A DNA stretch of 37,248 nt from Dehalococcoidia bacterium (GTDB lineage: Bacteria; Chloroflexota; Dehalococcoidia; GIF9; UBA5629): the NCBI GenBank assembly GCA_011170325.1, contig DUEX01000009.1, positions 1 to 37,248 of the forward strand, written 5' to 3'. Below the pieces are notes generated by a model. The model was not told where the DNA came from. It saw only the letters and a list, made by a program, of their open reading frames with translations, and made no database searches. Both the position numbers and the translations under genes were made by a program. The number at the start of each line of letters is the position of its first letter. Positions within the stretch are counted from its first letter, which is position 1. Below, in pieces: positions 24,312-36,388 of the stretch.

Positions 24312-25016
24312 TTGAGGAGAATTGTTGGTGCTTTATTTGTCTTAGTGCTGGCAGTATCCCTGGTGCTAGTACCAGCCTCCGTCTCAGCTGCGTCAGGTAT
24401 AGGTGACGATTGCACCTACGACAAAGTAAAGTGGGAGGACAATGAGAATTCCTGGATTTTGTACCTGCAGCACTGGGGAAAAACCCCACTGAGCGCCATG
24501 TCACGCCTAGCAGGTCTGTGTTCTCCCAATGCCCTGTGCAAAGATGTCTGTAATGCATCAGGCTTGTGCAAAGGCACAAGAATCACGGGCTGTGACATCC
24601 CAACTTGTGAAAACGCCTGCTGCTGCGCTGGGTCAGAAAGCATAGGTTGCTGCTTAGATGACGAGGTCTGTGAAAGCTGCTTGGAGAGACCACCTGGTGG
24701 CTGCTGCTGCTGCTGGGGGATTAGCCTATGTTTTGCCAACAAGAGCTGGTCTGCCGGTGATATCGGCGTTCACGCAAGAATCAACAACGAACACCCGAAC
24801 CACTTTGGCAATAGCGCCGCGGTTGGTGAGTTGGCTAACGTTGGTAACCCAACGTGGAACAGCCAGCACCCGAACCACTTTGCGTTCGTCACCGGCGATA
24901 ATGCCAACAGGGGTGGTGACTGGGGAGTCTCCGGATGCCAGCATGCAGAATGCGTCTCCGAGACCTGGTGTCTCCAGATGAATTGTCTTTCGCAGGATTG
25001 GCATTGTGCACCATAG
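24312..25016 (+). CDS. Secreted cysteine-rich protein, family not recognised
   Basis: The 234-residue product starts with TTG at 24312 behind a perfect AAGGAGGTGA. Residues 1-26 form a signal peptide (RRIVGALFVLVLAVSLVLVP, predicted cleavage after SVSA). The mature part has 24 cysteines: 18 are packed between residues 70 and 140, including CCC, CC and CCCC runs, and five more lie in the last 26 residues. That suits a disulfide-rich extracytoplasmic protein or a metal binder. Between the two Cys clusters lies a Cys-free, Asn/His-rich segment with a repeat (NEHPNHFGN and SQHPNHFAF). It has its own promoter and terminator, so it is a monocistronic, probably well-expressed gene. I know no homologue; function is unknown. 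Confidence 0.75.
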   Translation: MRRIVGALFVLVLAVSLVLVPASVSAASGIGDDCTYDKVKWEDNENSWILYLQHWGKTPLSAMSRLAGLCSPNALCKDVCNASGLCKGTRITGCDIPTCENACCCAGSESIGCCLDDEVCESCLERPPGGCCCCWGISLCFANKSWSAGDIGVHARINNEHPNHFGNSAAVGELANVGNPTWNSQHPNHFAFVTGDNANRGGDWGVSGCQHAECVSETWCLQMNCLSQDWHCAP

Positions 25017-28681: not shown

Positions 28682-29953
28682 ATGCTAGATATTAAGCTCA
28701 TCCGTGATAATCCTGACTTAATCCGCCAAGCTTTAGATAAGCGGGGCGATAGCGCTCCACTTGGTGAAATCATAAAGCTCGATGAGCGACATCGCCAGTT
28801 GCTTCATCAGATGGAAACACTTCGAGCTCAGCGTAACGAGGTCAGCAAACAACTGAGCAAGATGGCAGATAAACCACCTCAGCTCATCGCTGATATGCGC
28901 CAACTCGGGGAAAAGATTACTTCTCTAGAGGGGGAAACAGGTCAGGTTGCAACTAAGCTGGAGGACTATCTGCTACTGTTGCCTAACATCCCAGCGACTA
29001 ATGTGCCTATTGGTAAGGATGAGCGAGATAATGTGGTAGTGCGTTCCTGGGGTGAGCCTCGAGATTTTTCTTTCACACCACTACCTCATTGGGAGTTGGG
29101 AGAAAGGCTAAGTATCATCGATTTTCAGCGAGGCGTCAAGCTTTCCGGAACTCGTTTTTATGTTCTTAGGGGGCTGGGGGCTCATCTCCAGCGGGCACTC
29201 ATCGCTTTCATGCTTGACCTCCATGTAAATGAGCATGGCTATACTGAAATCTATCCCCCTTTTATGGTGAAACGAGATTGTATGGTTGGCTCAAGTAACT
29301 TGCCCAAATTTGCCGATAATCTGTACCATGATGAGGAAGATGATTTCTGGTTTGTGCCTACCGCTGAGGTGCCATTGACCAATCTACATCGCGATGAAAT
29401 CTTACCGCCAGGTACTTTAACTGTCCATTATGTCGCTTATACCGCCTGCTTCCGTCGAGAGAAGATGGCAGCCGGCAAGGATACTCGGGGCATTAAACGA
29501 GGACACCAATTTGACAAGGTTGAACTTTATAAGTTCACTGAGCCAGAAGTTTCTGACCAGGAATTAGATGGGATGGTGAGGGATGCTGAGGAAGTGTGTC
29601 GTCGGCTAGATATTCCTTATCGGGTAGTGCAGCTATGTACTGGCGACCTAGGCTTTGCTGCAGTTAAAGCCTTTGACATTGAAATGTGGGCTCCCGGCTG
29701 TGGCGAGTGGCTAGAAGTTAGCTCATGTAGCAACTGTGGTGATTTCCAAGCCAGACGGGCAAACATTCGCTATCGCCAAGAACTTGAGGCTAAACCCCGC
29801 TTCGTCCATACTCTTAACGGCTCAGGGCTGGCTTTACCTAGAGTAATTATCTCAATACTAGAGAACTATCAGCAAACTGACGGCAGTGTAGCAATACCTA
29901 AAGCACTAAAGCCATATATAGGGGTAGAGGCAATTAAGAAGCGTCAAAACTAG
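28682..29953 (+). CDS. serS: Seryl-tRNA synthetase
   Basis: The 423-residue class II enzyme charges tRNA-Ser. The N-terminal long coiled coil (about 28-100, LDERHRQLLHQMETLRAQRNE) that reads the long variable arm of tRNA-Ser is followed by the core: VPTAEVPLTNLHRDEIL, motif 2 TACFRREKMAAGKDTRGIKR, HQFDKVELYKF, EVSSCSNCGDFQARRANIRY and motif 3 NGSGLALPRVIISILE. The ATG at 28682 follows lysS by 18 bp. A matching tRNA-Ser(UGA) gene lies further right in the window. Confidence 0.95.
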   Translation: MLDIKLIRDNPDLIRQALDKRGDSAPLGEIIKLDERHRQLLHQMETLRAQRNEVSKQLSKMADKPPQLIADMRQLGEKITSLEGETGQVATKLEDYLLLLPNIPATNVPIGKDERDNVVVRSWGEPRDFSFTPLPHWELGERLSIIDFQRGVKLSGTRFYVLRGLGAHLQRALIAFMLDLHVNEHGYTEIYPPFMVKRDCMVGSSNLPKFADNLYHDEEDDFWFVPTAEVPLTNLHRDEILPPGTLTVHYVAYTACFRREKMAAGKDTRGIKRGHQFDKVELYKFTEPEVSDQELDGMVRDAEEVCRRLDIPYRVVQLCTGDLGFAAVKAFDIEMWAPGCGEWLEVSSCSNCGDFQARRANIRYRQELEAKPRFVHTLNGSGLALPRVIISILENYQQTDGSVAIPKALKPYIGVEAIKKRQN

Positions 29954-30251: not shown

Positions 30252-32159
30252 GTGCAGCCAAAGATAATCTTATGCCCCAGATGTCACGCACAAAACGCTC
30301 CAGGTGAGCCATTTTGCCGGAACTGCCACGCAAGGTTATGCTCTGAGTGCCATAGTGTTGTTCCTCCCCAATCCAGATATTGCCCAAAGTGTGGAAAGGA
30401 AGTTCGTAATTGGAAGCCGCCAGACAAAGTTCAGCAGCAAAGTTTTGCAAGTCAGCAATTCCGCGGAGTTTCTGACACGAAGCCTCAATACACTTGCCCT
30501 CAGTGTGGCGCTCATATTGACACTGCGTCTGGACATTGTCCAAGGTGTGGCTTCCTCGGTCACATGCAACATGTGGAAACGCAGCAGCAAACACCGGATA
30601 CTGCATCAGTAGAAGCACCAAGTGTTGCACCGAGGGCAGCAAGCCCTGAGTCACCACATGTTACAGAGCAGCAATTCCGTGGAGTTTCTGATACGAGGCT
30701 CCAACCCACCTGCCCTCGGTGTGGCGCTTTTGTCCCCTCCTACTCCAGATACTGTTCAAAATGCGGCAACCTTTGTGGTACAGGACGATATGTCGGGATG
30801 CGGCGTCAAATGCCAAGTGCCGCACTATGGGCGCCGAGCGCTTTGTCGCAGATAAGCCCGCCTACAGACGAGGTAACATATGCTGAACCAAGAGTGCGTA
30901 GCTCTGCATCGCAGGATTGGATGCTTCCAGATGCCGCAGCAAAAGAATGGAGCACCCCATCACCACGAAGCCCACTTCTACAGGAAATAACAGGTGCTAG
31001 AACGAGAGAATGGATATCTCCACCGCCAGTGAGGCGGTTTCCAGTAGGAACTCTACTAACCATATTACTCCTTCTCGCCGGGGTCTCTGCTCTCGGTTAC
31101 TATGTTTTTGGCCAGAATGTCATTGAATGGCCCTCACCACCGCCTCATATCCCGGTAGACACCACACCTCCTATAATCCAAAGTGTCTCGGTTTCATCCA
31201 TAACTGAGGCAAGTGCTGTTACTACCTGGGTAACTGACGAGCCATCTACCAGCCAAGTCATGGTATGCCACCCTGACGGCACTTGTACTTGGACACAGCC
31301 TGATGAAACTCCAGTTACTAACCACTCTGTAACCTTAAGTAACCTTGAGCCAGATACGACTTACCACTTAACCCTGATATCGAAAGACGAGAGCGGAAAT
31401 GAAGCGACATCTGACCGAGAATTAACAACTTTGGGCCAAGCCGATACGACCCCGCCACTGATTTCAGAAGTCAATATTTCCAATATTACAGAAACAAGCG
31501 CCACTATAACCTGGGAAACTGATGAAGATGCCACTAGCCAGGTGGAATACGGGATAACTGATGCTTATGGCTCAACCACGTCATGGGATGAGGAGTTAAC
31601 CACTGGCCATAGTGTCACCTTAAGCGAGCTAGAGCCAGATACAACTTATCACTTCAGGCTGAAGTCGATAGACGCTAGTGGGAACGAAGCGATGTCTGAA
31701 ACAGGTCAGATATTCGAAACTCTCCCCCCTGTCCCAGTCAGCCCTGAAGTGGGCAGCCGCGCTCCCAATTTCACCCTGTATAACCTTGACGGAGAGGAGA
31801 TAACTCTGGCTAATCTTCAGGGTAAAATAGTAATGGTCAACTTCTGGTTTGCATCGTGTGCTCCTTGCCAACAAGAAATGCCTTACATTCAGGCAGTGTC
31901 TGATAACTGGTCAGATGAGGAATTAGCAATACTTGCCATCAATCGCATTGATAGTGCTGGCACTATCCGAAGCTTTATGGACAGCAAAGGATATACTTTC
32001 CCCGTCCTGCTCGATTCAGTAGGAGCAGTCCATGCCTATTACGACGTAAGCAAGTGGCCCACGACTTTCTTCATAGATGCCGAGGGTATTATTAGGGAAG
32101 TAGAGGTGGGACGTTTCCATAGCCAAGAGGAAATAGGAAGCATACTCGAGTCTCTCTAG
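30252..32159 (+). CDS. Zinc-ribbon, transmembrane, double fibronectin III, TlpA-like thiol-redox fusion protein
   Basis: The 635-residue fusion begins with four CxxC-x9-10-CxxC zinc ribbons: Cys 8/11/22/25, 30/33/44/47, 82/85/96/99 and 154/157/168/171. A low-complexity Pro/Ser linker leads to one membrane helix (about 264-286, VGTLLTILLLLAGVSALGYY). Then come two fibronectin III-like domains (about 304-395 and 400-491, each with SITEASA or NITETSA and LEPDTTYH), and a C-terminal TlpA/ResA-like thioredoxin domain (about 497-633). The latter carries FWFASCAPCQQEMP with active-site Cys536 and Cys539 and the cis-Pro in KWPTTFFID. The Cys-rich N-terminus should face the cytosol and the redox domain the outside. 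The GTG start has no clear Shine-Dalgarno, but the first ribbon begins right after it. Confidence 0.85.
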   Translation: MQPKIILCPRCHAQNAPGEPFCRNCHARLCSECHSVVPPQSRYCPKCGKEVRNWKPPDKVQQQSFASQQFRGVSDTKPQYTCPQCGAHIDTASGHCPRCGFLGHMQHVETQQQTPDTASVEAPSVAPRAASPESPHVTEQQFRGVSDTRLQPTCPRCGAFVPSYSRYCSKCGNLCGTGRYVGMRRQMPSAALWAPSALSQISPPTDEVTYAEPRVRSSASQDWMLPDAAAKEWSTPSPRSPLLQEITGARTREWISPPPVRRFPVGTLLTILLLLAGVSALGYYVFGQNVIEWPSPPPHIPVDTTPPIIQSVSVSSITEASAVTTWVTDEPSTSQVMVCHPDGTCTWTQPDETPVTNHSVTLSNLEPDTTYHLTLISKDESGNEATSDRELTTLGQADTTPPLISEVNISNITETSATITWETDEDATSQVEYGITDAYGSTTSWDEELTTGHSVTLSELEPDTTYHFRLKSIDASGNEAMSETGQIFETLPPVPVSPEVGSRAPNFTLYNLDGEEITLANLQGKIVMVNFWFASCAPCQQEMPYIQAVSDNWSDEELAILAINRIDSAGTIRSFMDSKGYTFPVLLDSVGAVHAYYDVSKWPTTFFIDAEGIIREVEVGRFHSQEEIGSILESL

Positions 32160-33425: not shown

Positions 33426-33659
33426 CTAGAAGGTTAGCTTATTACACTCCCCACACAGAATTTCCCAATTTGAAGGCTCGTCACCACCAGCTATACTTTT
33501 TTGATGAACTTCCCAGCCGCCTCGACCTTCTTTGCCCCTTTCCTCCCATACCAACTCTGCGTTGCACCTACCCATGTGACCATGCATCTGCCTCATACAC
33601 TCGCATCTCGCACTTGCTCTTTGCCATGATTGTCCAACAATACTTTCAGAACATGGCAT
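33426..33659 (-). CDS. Small HNH-like nuclease-family protein with an altered active-site pair
   Basis: The 77-residue protein shows the zinc-binding HNH layout: CEC and GRC cysteines at 19, 21 and 32, then WEERGKEGRGGWEVHQKSIAGG and NWEILCGECNKLTF with the final Cys69 and Cys72. Relatives, as I recall them, carry WEAHH in the middle; here it is VHQ, so one of the two catalytic His is replaced by Gln and nuclease activity is uncertain. The start ATG at 33659 has an excellent AAGGAGGTGTGAT, so the longer frame from 33833 is not the real start. It lies beside a truncated recombinase near a tRNA gene, a typical setting for mobile-element cargo. Confidence 0.65.
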   Translation of the reverse strand: MPCSESIVGQSWQRASARCECMRQMHGHMGRCNAELVWEERGKEGRGGWEVHQKSIAGGDEPSNWEILCGECNKLTF

Positions 33660-33829
33660 ATCACACCTCCTTCCGGCATGGTTAGCCGACAACTCAGAAT
33701 ATCTACAATAATGATGCATCCTACGTGATTTGTCAACACCATCTAATTTCAAGGTTACCTGCTGTGAATACCGTTTGTGTTCTGCCACCGCATCATGACA
33801 AACGACTGCTTGACAGTAACGGAGAACTA

Positions 33830-34201
33830 TCAATATAGTCCCTCAGTTACAGCCCAATTAAACGTAGCCCGAAGACATGCATATAGCCTCTTGATTGTGA
33901 TGGGACTGATTGGTCTATTGGCTCCTGCGGATTTGCTACCCCTTCTGCCCAGCTCAGTACTTCGTACATAGGCCAGAAATTGGCGGATATGCTCATGAGT
34001 AATATCAATGGCTTTCTGTGGCAGTCCATAGTTCTCTGCATACCATAGAAATTTGGCCAGTTTCTCAGTATAATATTGTATTGTTGCATTGGACTTGCCT
34101 GTGACTTTACAATCTAGTAGAAAGCCATTAACAAGAGACCACATCGCTATTTCGCTATCTGACTGAATTTGAGATTTCGGATGAAACCGTCTCAATGTCA
34201 C
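33830..34201 (-). pseudogene. Truncated tyrosine recombinase (N-terminal core-binding domain only)
   Basis: The 123-residue frame matches the SAM-like core-binding domain of XerC/D-type integrases: LVNGFLLDCKVTGKSNATIQ, YYTEKLAKFLWYAENYG, ITHEHIRQFLAYVRSTELG and SPITIKRLYACLRATFNWAV. It stops after TEGLY, before the catalytic domain with its R...HxxR...Y residues, and no such domain is found in any frame nearby, so it is a remnant. The start is a GTG at 34201, only 10 bp from the 5' end of tRNA-Ser. Regular integrases have 290-400 residues. It probably marks a former integration event. Confidence 0.75.
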
Positions 34202-34211
34202 ATACGGTTGT

Positions 34212-34300
34212 GGAGGGGTGACCGAGCGGTTTATGGTGGCGGTCTTGAAAACCGTTTTCGTCTTTGGCGAACGTGGGTTCGAATCCCACCCCCTCCGCCA
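34212..34300 (+). tRNA. tRNA-Ser, anticodon UGA
   Basis: The gene folds as a class II tRNA. The acceptor GGAGGGG pairs with CCCCTCC, then discriminator G and an encoded CCA. The anticodon arm is GCGGT-CTTGAAA-ACCGT with anticodon TGA (34246-34248). A long variable arm (TTCG pairs with CGAA) is typical of tRNA-Ser, and the T arm is GTGGG-TTCGAAT-CCCAC. It reads serine UCA and related codons. SucC begins 31 bp downstream, and the recombinase remnant is 10 bp upstream. Confidence 0.97.
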
Positions 34301-34331: not shown

Positions 34332-35498
34332 ATGAAAATCCACGAATACCAAGCAAAGGCGTTATTATCTGAGTTTGGCATACCTATCCCTGAGGGTGGA
34401 GTAGCCGCCACACCGGCTGAAGCTAATAAGATAGCTGCTAACCTCGGTGGCAAGGTGGCAATTAAAGCTCAGGTCTACGCCGGTGGCAGGGGCAAAGCCG
34501 GAGGCATAAAGGTAGCTAATACACCTGAGGAGGCCGAAAAGCTGGCAGGCCAGATGATTGGCACCAGGCTGGTAACTCACCAGACAACCCCAGAAGGAGT
34601 GCCGGTAAGCAAGGTCCTGGTGGAGAAGGCTGTTGCTGTCGAGCGCGAGCTTTATCTCAGCATTATCGTCGATAATGTCAGCCGTATGCCGGTGACGATG
34701 GCTAGCGAAGCCGGCGGTATGGATATTGAGGAGGTAGCTCAAGTTAGCCCGGAGAAGATTCTCAAAGTCTACATTGACCAGGCGGCTGGCTTTCAGGCCT
34801 TCCAGGGACGCAAGCTGGCCTATGGAATGAACTTAAGCCCGACTCAGGTTCGACCAGCCACCAGCTTGATGACAAACCTATATAGACTGTTTCAGGCAAA
34901 GGACTGCTCCCTGGCTGAAATCAATCCTTTGGTAGTTACTGCTGATGGCGAGCTTCTAGCTCTCGATGCTAAGTTGAACTTCGATGATAACGCTCTTTTC
35001 CGCCATAGTGACATCGAGCAACTTCATGACCTAGAACAGGAAGACCAGCTTGAAGTTAAAGCTAACCAGCTGGGGGTTAAGAATTATATTAAAATGGATG
35101 GCAACATTGGCTGCATGGTCAACGGGGCTGGCTTGGCCATGGCAGTTATGGACCTCATCACTCAAGCTGGTGGCAGTCCAGCTAACTTTCTTGATATTGG
35201 TACGGTTAATAATACCGAACGTGTCGTCAGCGCCTTTAAGGTTTTCACTACCGACCCCAGTGTGAAAGCGATACTGGTGAATATCTTTGGCGGTATGGCT
35301 AGGGTAGATGTTATCGCCCAAGGCATAGTCGAAGCTCACGGGCAGATGGATGTTCGTCTTCCATTGGTCATCAGATTGGCTGGGACAAATGTTGATGAGG
35401 GTAAGCGCATCTTAGCCGAATCTAAGATAGACTTTATTGAGGCAACGGATTTTTACGATGCTGCACGCAAAGCAGTGGCAGCAGCCAAAAGCTCTTAA
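34332..35498 (+). CDS. sucC: Succinyl-CoA ligase beta subunit-like (ATP-grasp)
   Basis: The 388-residue subunit has the ATP-grasp fold of succinate-CoA ligase (ADP or GDP forming): MKIHEYQAKALLSEFGIP, the nucleotide loop QVYAGGRGKAGGIK, SLAEINPLVV with the metal-binding Glu and Asn, and MVNGAGLAM whose Asn264 matches the E. coli substrate-binding position. Two substrate-site stretches differ from E. coli SucC: DVGGGA is replaced by DIGTVNN (288-294), and GGIVRCD by GGMARVD (320-326). So the acid handled may not be succinate. AAGGAGGG precedes the ATG. It is followed 20 bp later by sucD. Confidence 0.9.
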   Translation: MKIHEYQAKALLSEFGIPIPEGGVAATPAEANKIAANLGGKVAIKAQVYAGGRGKAGGIKVANTPEEAEKLAGQMIGTRLVTHQTTPEGVPVSKVLVEKAVAVERELYLSIIVDNVSRMPVTMASEAGGMDIEEVAQVSPEKILKVYIDQAAGFQAFQGRKLAYGMNLSPTQVRPATSLMTNLYRLFQAKDCSLAEINPLVVTADGELLALDAKLNFDDNALFRHSDIEQLHDLEQEDQLEVKANQLGVKNYIKMDGNIGCMVNGAGLAMAVMDLITQAGGSPANFLDIGTVNNTERVVSAFKVFTTDPSVKAILVNIFGGMARVDVIAQGIVEAHGQMDVRLPLVIRLAGTNVDEGKRILAESKIDFIEATDFYDAARKAVAAAKSS

Positions 35499-35518
35499 AC
35501 TAACAAAGGAGGCAAGAA

Positions 35519-36388
35519 TTGAGCATCTTGATCGATGAAAAAACACGGTTGCTGGTGCAGGGGATTACTGGAGGTGAAGGCAGCTTTCATACCCAGCGGT
35601 GTATCGACTATGGCACTAAAGTTGTCGCCGGAGTTACCCCGGGGAAGGGAGGAAGCCAGACGTTAGGCGTCCCTGTCTTCAACACTGTAGACACGGCAGT
35701 AAAGGAAACCGGAGCCAATGCCAGCATAATTTTTGTGCCACCTGCCTTTGCTGCTGATGCTATTCTAGAAGCCACTGATGCTGGTATTCCATTGATTGTG
35801 TGCATTACCGAGGGCATCCCAGTTTCAGATATGGTAATGGTGCATGACTACCTCAAGGGTAAGTCGGCTCGACTCATCGGTCCCAACTGCCCCGGTGTCA
35901 TCTCCCCGGGCAAATGCAAGGCAGGGCTTATGGTCGGCGAGATTCATCTTCCCGGCAATGTCGGCCTTGTTTCCCGCAGTGGCACTCTAACTTATGAAGC
36001 GGTTGCCCAGCTAACCAGTCTGGGTATCGGGCAATCTACCTGTGTTGGCATTGGCGGCGACCCTTTGCCCGGCAGTGCTTTCGTTGACATACTCACGTTA
36101 TTCCAAGAAGACAAGGATACTAAGGCGATCGTGCTTATCGGTGAGATCGGCGGCACTGCTGAGCAGGAGGCTGCCGACTTCATTAAGGGGAAGATGACCA
36201 AGCCAGTGGTTGCCTTTGTGGCTGGAGCTACAGCTCCACCGGGGAGAAGAATGGGACACGCCGGGGCTATCATCAGCGGCAGCTCAGGCAGAGCCCAGGA
36301 AAAGATAACAGCCCTAGCCACCGGGGCTACCATAGCTCCTAGCCCTGCCGAAATCGGGCTTACCATGAAGAAGGTACTGGAGGCATAA
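35519..36388 (+). CDS. sucD: Succinyl-CoA ligase alpha subunit
   Basis: The 289-residue alpha subunit binds CoA and carries the phosphohistidine. Visible are the CoA-binding domain ([33 protein letters not shown]), the [16 protein letters not shown] loop, [13 protein letters not shown], and the active His247 in [16 protein letters not shown]. The start TTG at 35519 lies after AAAGGAGGCAAG with a good spacing. Paired with SucC it makes acyl-CoA from an acid, CoA and NTP, or runs in reverse with substrate-level phosphorylation. It is transcribed with sucC and overlaps the ribosome-binding site of the following gene. Confidence 0.95.

Follow-up and report, generated by a model that had tools for sequence, protein, structure and literature searches.

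The window, i.e. the whole stretch of 37,248 nucleotides that was analysed, carries on its plus strand a single open frame (30252..32159) that begins with GTG, ends with the stop at 32159 and encodes a protein of 635 aa. The frame, the Pfam matches and an orthologue alignment together give its layout: four zinc ribbons, one membrane helix (TM), two fibronectin III (FN3) domains and a TlpA/ResA-like domain. Pfam matched DZR and Zn_Ribbon_1 in three stretches of the protein, fn3 in two, and AhpC-TSA at 5e-27; these matches, the alignment with ResA and a count of cysteines by eye bore out the order of domains given in an earlier note on this DNA (four ribbons with 16 Cys, helix, two FN3 domains, TlpA-like domain with CAPC). 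Two doubts that the note had raised about its own reading were removed. An assembly chimera is ruled out, as the same architecture and the same gene order recur in several independent assemblies; a start after the ribbons is ruled out as well, since the aligned orthologues from eight other genomes share the first residue (MQPKIILC or MQPRITLC) and the start at 30252 is therefore correct. The frame, the start and the domain order of this gene are real.

Ribbons 1 and 2 form a double zinc ribbon (residues 8-48, 30273..30395), followed by ribbon 3 (residues 80-101, 30489..30554) and ribbon 4 (residues 152-173, 30705..30770), all of them, as all parts of the gene described below, on the plus strand. 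The 16 paired Cys, counted by eye, stand in quartets at 8/11/22/25, 30/33/44/47, 82/85/96/99 and 154/157/168/171; a seventeenth cytosolic Cys is located after the fourth ribbon. With its paired CxxC the array scored 52.1 bits for DZR, above the Pfam cut-off of 27.3. In a nine-row orthologue alignment all 12 Cys of ribbons 1-3 (eight in the double ribbon, four in ribbon 3) are invariant, which suggests that the ribbons bind zinc; the linker that joins them to the helix is not conserved. For the four pairs compared from one of the family's two gene neighbourhoods (locus A, see below) dN/dS was 0.01-0.15 in the ribbons versus 0.08-0.40 in the linker, thus the ribbons are the more strongly constrained part. 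Ribbon 4 is present in the window gene only; none of the other aligned orthologues has it and its flank QQFRGVSDT recurs at ribbon 3, so it is probably an internal duplication.

The single membrane helix (residues about 263-285, 31038..31106) has VRR just before it. In aligned members the net charge is zero or positive on its N-side (+2 in the window protein) and mostly zero or negative on its C-side (-1 in the window protein); hydropathy and charge thus predict, by the positive-inside rule, an N-in/C-out topology, and helix and charge pattern agree with an extracytoplasmic location of the C-terminal part on a membrane anchor. The layout proposed earlier, a cytosolic metal-Cys array joined through a helix to FN3 domains and an extracytoplasmic thiol oxidoreductase, is in this way supported, its topology by hydropathy and charge only.

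After the predicted helix come FN3-1 (residues 304-395, 31161..31436) and FN3-2 (residues 396-488, 31437..31715); Foldseek with a partial model returned matches to tandem FN3 structures. FN3-1 contains a C-x5-C pair, Cys339 and Cys345 (31266..31286, within the sequence VMVCHPDGTCTW), predicted from sequence and model to sit at the tip of a beta-hairpin: in the single-sequence model the strands stop at Cys339 and resume at Cys345 (pLDDT 82-88 there). Among the single-sequence structure models the usable part was the FN3 tandem of the longer model; its TlpA part had pLDDT <50, and FN3-1 modelled alone was unusable.

The C-terminal ResA/TlpA-like thioredoxin-fold domain (residues 494-635, 31731..32156; Pfam AhpC-TSA and ResA match) aligned with Bacillus subtilis ResA (PDB 1st9) at E = 1e-24 over 121 residues; in this alignment the active-site motif CAPC was located at 536-539 (Cys536 and Cys539, 31857..31868) and KWPTT fell on the cis-Pro site LPTT of ResA. 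The domain belongs to the AhpC/TSA-Redoxin-TlpA branch of the thioredoxin fold (AhpC-TSA 5e-27, ResA structures 1e-24), its score for NCBIfam ResA being 114.1 bits against a cut-off of 170. The window protein is like ResA of B. subtilis in the thioredoxin fold, the CxxC, the cis-Pro, the membrane anchor and the extracytoplasmic location (predicted for the window protein); unlike the window protein, ResA has a short N-terminal anchor only, with neither ribbons nor FN3 domains.

We then have to consider what such a domain could act upon and what could feed it. The window's genome (92% complete) lacks the cytochrome c assembly protein PF01578, as do 18 of the 19 family members sampled; therefore the classical ResA role in cytochrome c maturation is unlikely, and this process is disfavoured as the client. 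MsrA is disfavoured as a client too, being absent from the window's genome. VKOR was missing in 31 of 31 genomes searched. A CcdA-type DsbD_TM was present in 18 of the 19 sampled family members, including the window's genome, where a good match adjoins a TlpA lipoprotein on contig C35; the window gene itself has no CcdA as neighbour. CcdA-fed surface lipoproteins of thioredoxin fold have been described in pneumococcus (PMC3914529). In the Etrx1/Etrx2-CcdA pathway of Streptococcus pneumoniae, as in the reading proposed below, surface proteins of thioredoxin fold receive electrons from cytosolic thioredoxin via CcdA (PMC3914529), and the structures 4hqs, 4hqz and 2yp6 from this pathway match the window's TlpA-like domain. 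Etrx1 and Etrx2 differ in being lipoproteins without ribbons or FN3 domains, and for their client MsrAB2 the window's genome offers no MsrA counterpart.

By gene order in relatives, serS (28682..29953, plus strand) is the conserved upstream neighbour and sucC-sucD (34332..36388, plus strand) are the conserved downstream neighbours; the place between serS and sucCD is kept in several genera. Between an FMN reductase gene and sucC lies a segment (33426-34297) with a tRNA gene (34212-34297), a minus-strand N-terminal fragment of a tyrosine recombinase (33830-34201) and a short Cys/His-rich ORF; it resembles the remains of an element that had integrated at this tRNA. Further upstream, at 24312-25016, a secreted Cys-rich protein is encoded (234 aa, 24 Cys, no Pfam match); it is a possible client of the thiol enzyme, although its Cys are poorly conserved.

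In relatives, genes of this kind occupy two main places. At locus A the order is lysS-serS, often a small soluble ribbon protein (~116 aa), then a ribbon-TM-FN3-TlpA protein (~550 aa), the window gene's orthologue, and sucC-sucD; FMN reductase is found here in some relatives as well. At locus B the order is thioredoxin-CcdA-TlpA lipoprotein-ribbon-TM-FN3-FN3-TlpA, and a tandem TlpA protein often comes next. Of this gene family the window's genome has just the window gene at locus A; its locus B (contig C35) has thioredoxin, CcdA and one TlpA lipoprotein, with the ribbon gene missing. The window gene and the C35 lipoprotein are the only close TlpA-domain matches there, so this genome has a small set for the family.

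Several variants of the architecture were seen on the way. A paralogue with three ribbons, a helix and two FN3 domains and without TlpA is encoded in the window's genome (L061, contig C46, 17226-18308), which elsewhere also encodes ribbon-helix proteins whose outer domains are different or missing. In relatives, genes for small soluble multi-ribbon proteins (L043 10847-11200, L077 4720-5562) separate serS from the membrane genes; these proteins are possible cytosolic partners. In two other genes (L085 5740-7455, L090 6950-8671) a multi-helix N-terminus, MauE/DoxX-like by reading of the sequence, is fused to FN3-FN3-TlpA; by eye, these adjoin genes resembling arsenate reductase, arsenite transporter and ArsR regulator.

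All 29 other genomes of the same taxonomic family had 2-10 matches at E <= 1e-20, with best E <= 3.1e-60, and most of the strong matches share the architecture of the window gene. Other genomes of the order (n=30) gave weak matches only, to the TlpA domain alone among the matches listed. Outside the family no match jointly covering FN3 and TlpA was found in the class (197 genomes) or the phylum (301 genomes), scans in which the best few candidates per genome were scored and a very diverged copy could escape. None of the 12 outside-family regions read (seven with the match in a long frame) had the architecture, and a scan of genome contigs gave five matches, each confined to one part of the protein, the best of them without ribbons and TlpA. 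The domain-architecture search proposed in the earlier note thus found the architecture across the family and, with the best few candidates per genome, found none in the class and phylum samples. As the note had supposed, we met no description of the ribbon-TM-FN3-TlpA architecture in the open-access literature searched, and a search for zinc-ribbon single-pass proteins gave nothing relevant. The gene is no single curiosity; we characterize it as a member of a multi-copy family of one lineage.

The two ends of these proteins turned out to be separable. Among 77 members with the helix, 39 had both ribbons and CxxC, 11 had ribbons without CxxC, 26 had CxxC without a ribbon and one had neither. 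The eleven without CxxC are ribbon-bearing paralogues of locus B type (in L044, L045, L046, L048, L051-L054, L057, L059 and L064); CcdA stands beside eight of them and was not seen on the stretch read for the other three. Purifying selection acts on their TlpA domain (dN/dS 0.17-0.31), so that pseudogenes can be ruled out. Between the paralogues L044_8 and L053_9 similarity is 88% in the ribbons and 55% in TlpA; for L053_9 and L048_8 the values are 33 and 73%. Judged by these similarities, ribbon segments are exchanged between paralogues independently of the rest. In the window copy, the best match of ribbons 1-2 is to sucC-side orthologues, that of ribbon 3 to a small ribbon protein and that of the FN3 domains to CcdA-locus paralogues, and in a TlpA tree the window protein groups weakly with sucC-side orthologues (87/73). 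The differing best matches, which are no proof, suggest that this copy is a mosaic made by recombination between paralogues.

As ribbons and redox site are separable and ribbon segments are swapped, it is unlikely that redox changes are relayed from one end to the other; the relay along the chain offered in the earlier note is disfavoured by ribbons without CxxC in 11 members, CxxC without ribbons in 26 and the exchanged ribbon segment. The separability, the exchange and the stronger constraint on ribbons than on linker fit a docking module and do not fit a device that passes electrons or conformation. The inside and outside parts evolve separately and so probably have no electron passage between them.

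The reading we prefer, and hold to be fairly probable, is that of a membrane-tethered, extracytoplasmic thiol oxidoreductase of the ResA/TlpA kind, fed by CcdA, with an FN3 arm and a cytosolic zinc-ribbon docking tail. The TlpA-like domain is predicted to carry out thiol exchange through its CxxC on the outer side of the membrane, with reduction as its likeliest role; CcdA and thioredoxin are both encoded in the window's genome, and the domain would receive its electrons in trans, from cytosolic thioredoxin via the membrane protein CcdA of contig C35. Paralogues within the Trx-CcdA-TlpA gene cluster of relatives count for this CcdA-fed reading. The two FN3 domains would be spacers that keep the catalytic domain off the membrane, and the zinc-ribbon array, outside the electron path, would serve as a cytosolic docking or assembly module that positions the protein, perhaps jointly with the small soluble zinc-ribbon proteins encoded beside the gene in relatives. 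Of the functions offered in the earlier note, the best fit is a surface anchor for a redox enzyme. Staphylococcal zinc-ribbon-TM proteins of the TcaA type likewise have a cytosolic zinc ribbon, one helix and extracytoplasmic domains; to our knowledge, their outer domains are unrelated to those of the window protein.

One could speculate further about the Cys pair of FN3-1. In the N-terminal domain of DsbD the active pair, Cys103/Cys109, lies on opposite sides of a hairpin (PMC11838788), and the pair in FN3-1 may be a second thiol site of this sort or a structural disulfide. DsbD resembles the system described here in a thioredoxin-like C-terminal domain and a beta-sandwich domain with a hairpin C-x5-C, and a CcdA-type membrane domain is encoded in the window's genome; it differs in that these are separate chains in the window's genome, the window protein having no such membrane domain and its FN3 not being DsbD_N by profile. 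Of the DsbD_N, DsbD_TM and thioredoxin-like domains that make up DsbD in one chain, the window chain contains the thioredoxin-like domain only. No DsbD N-terminal domain was among the Pfam matches or the best PDB sequence matches, and FN3-1 as a true domain of this type was rejected, as it has no profile support and is an ordinary FN3 by profile. It is possible, if rather improbable, that the pair is nevertheless a thiol carrier like that of the DsbD N-terminal domain, exchanging with its own or neighbouring CcdA-fed TlpA domains, which would be compatible with the preferred reading and extend it. A pair of C-x5-C or near spacing is present in 26 out of 40 two-FN3 members with ribbons versus 2 of 23 without them (counts uncorrected for relatedness); it is kept in all 11 CxxC-less paralogues, in six of which it is the sole extracytoplasmic Cys. 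Against a carrier stand the ordinary FN3 profile, the structural disulfide, which explains the pair equally well, and several close orthologues without the pair (L043_9, L047_9, L060_8, L088_8, L050_12).

A wider version is a split, multi-copy DsbD-like system, with the FN3 hairpin C-x5-C as second thiol carrier, the conserved and mostly CcdA-adjacent branch with redox-dead TlpA as receiver or scaffold, and the zinc-ribbon tails assembling the copies in the cytosol; we regard it as a speculative and unlikely arrangement. Still harder to credit is a ribbon array acting as redox- or zinc-responsive sensor, so that the protein would signal across the membrane: either outer thiol chemistry would alter the state of the ribbons in the cytosol, or zinc or redox state in the cytosol would gate the enzyme outside. 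It would account for thiol-rich ends joined by one helix and for invariant ribbon Cys, but ribbons persist without CxxC and CxxC without ribbons, ribbons are exchanged between paralogues, the Pro/Gln-rich linker from ribbons to helix is unconserved, and the protein has no regulator domain. It is very improbable that the enzyme outside, instead of being a reductase, works as an oxidase or isomerase and forms disulfides in Cys-rich secreted proteins. In favour of this, a secreted protein with 24 Cys is encoded ~5 kb upstream and has relatives in this region in other genera, and VKOR, one oxidase partner, is missing, which leaves disulfide handling unexplained; yet the nearest homologues are ResA-type reductases, the family's conserved membrane partner is CcdA, a reducing protein, and few Cys of the secreted protein are conserved.

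Under the preferred CcdA-fed reading, a known extracytoplasmic thiol enzyme would have become part of a surface protein whose zinc-ribbon tail is cytosolic. This protein has expanded, up to ten strong matches per genome, in a lineage where cytochrome c assembly, the classical client, is mostly missing. Ribbon-only, CxxC-only and redox-dead variants form a natural set with which the role of the ribbons can be told apart from that of the enzyme. Should the FN3 Cys pair prove redox active, a fold generally regarded as a spacer would have gained, by convergence, a thiol carrier of the DsbD type.
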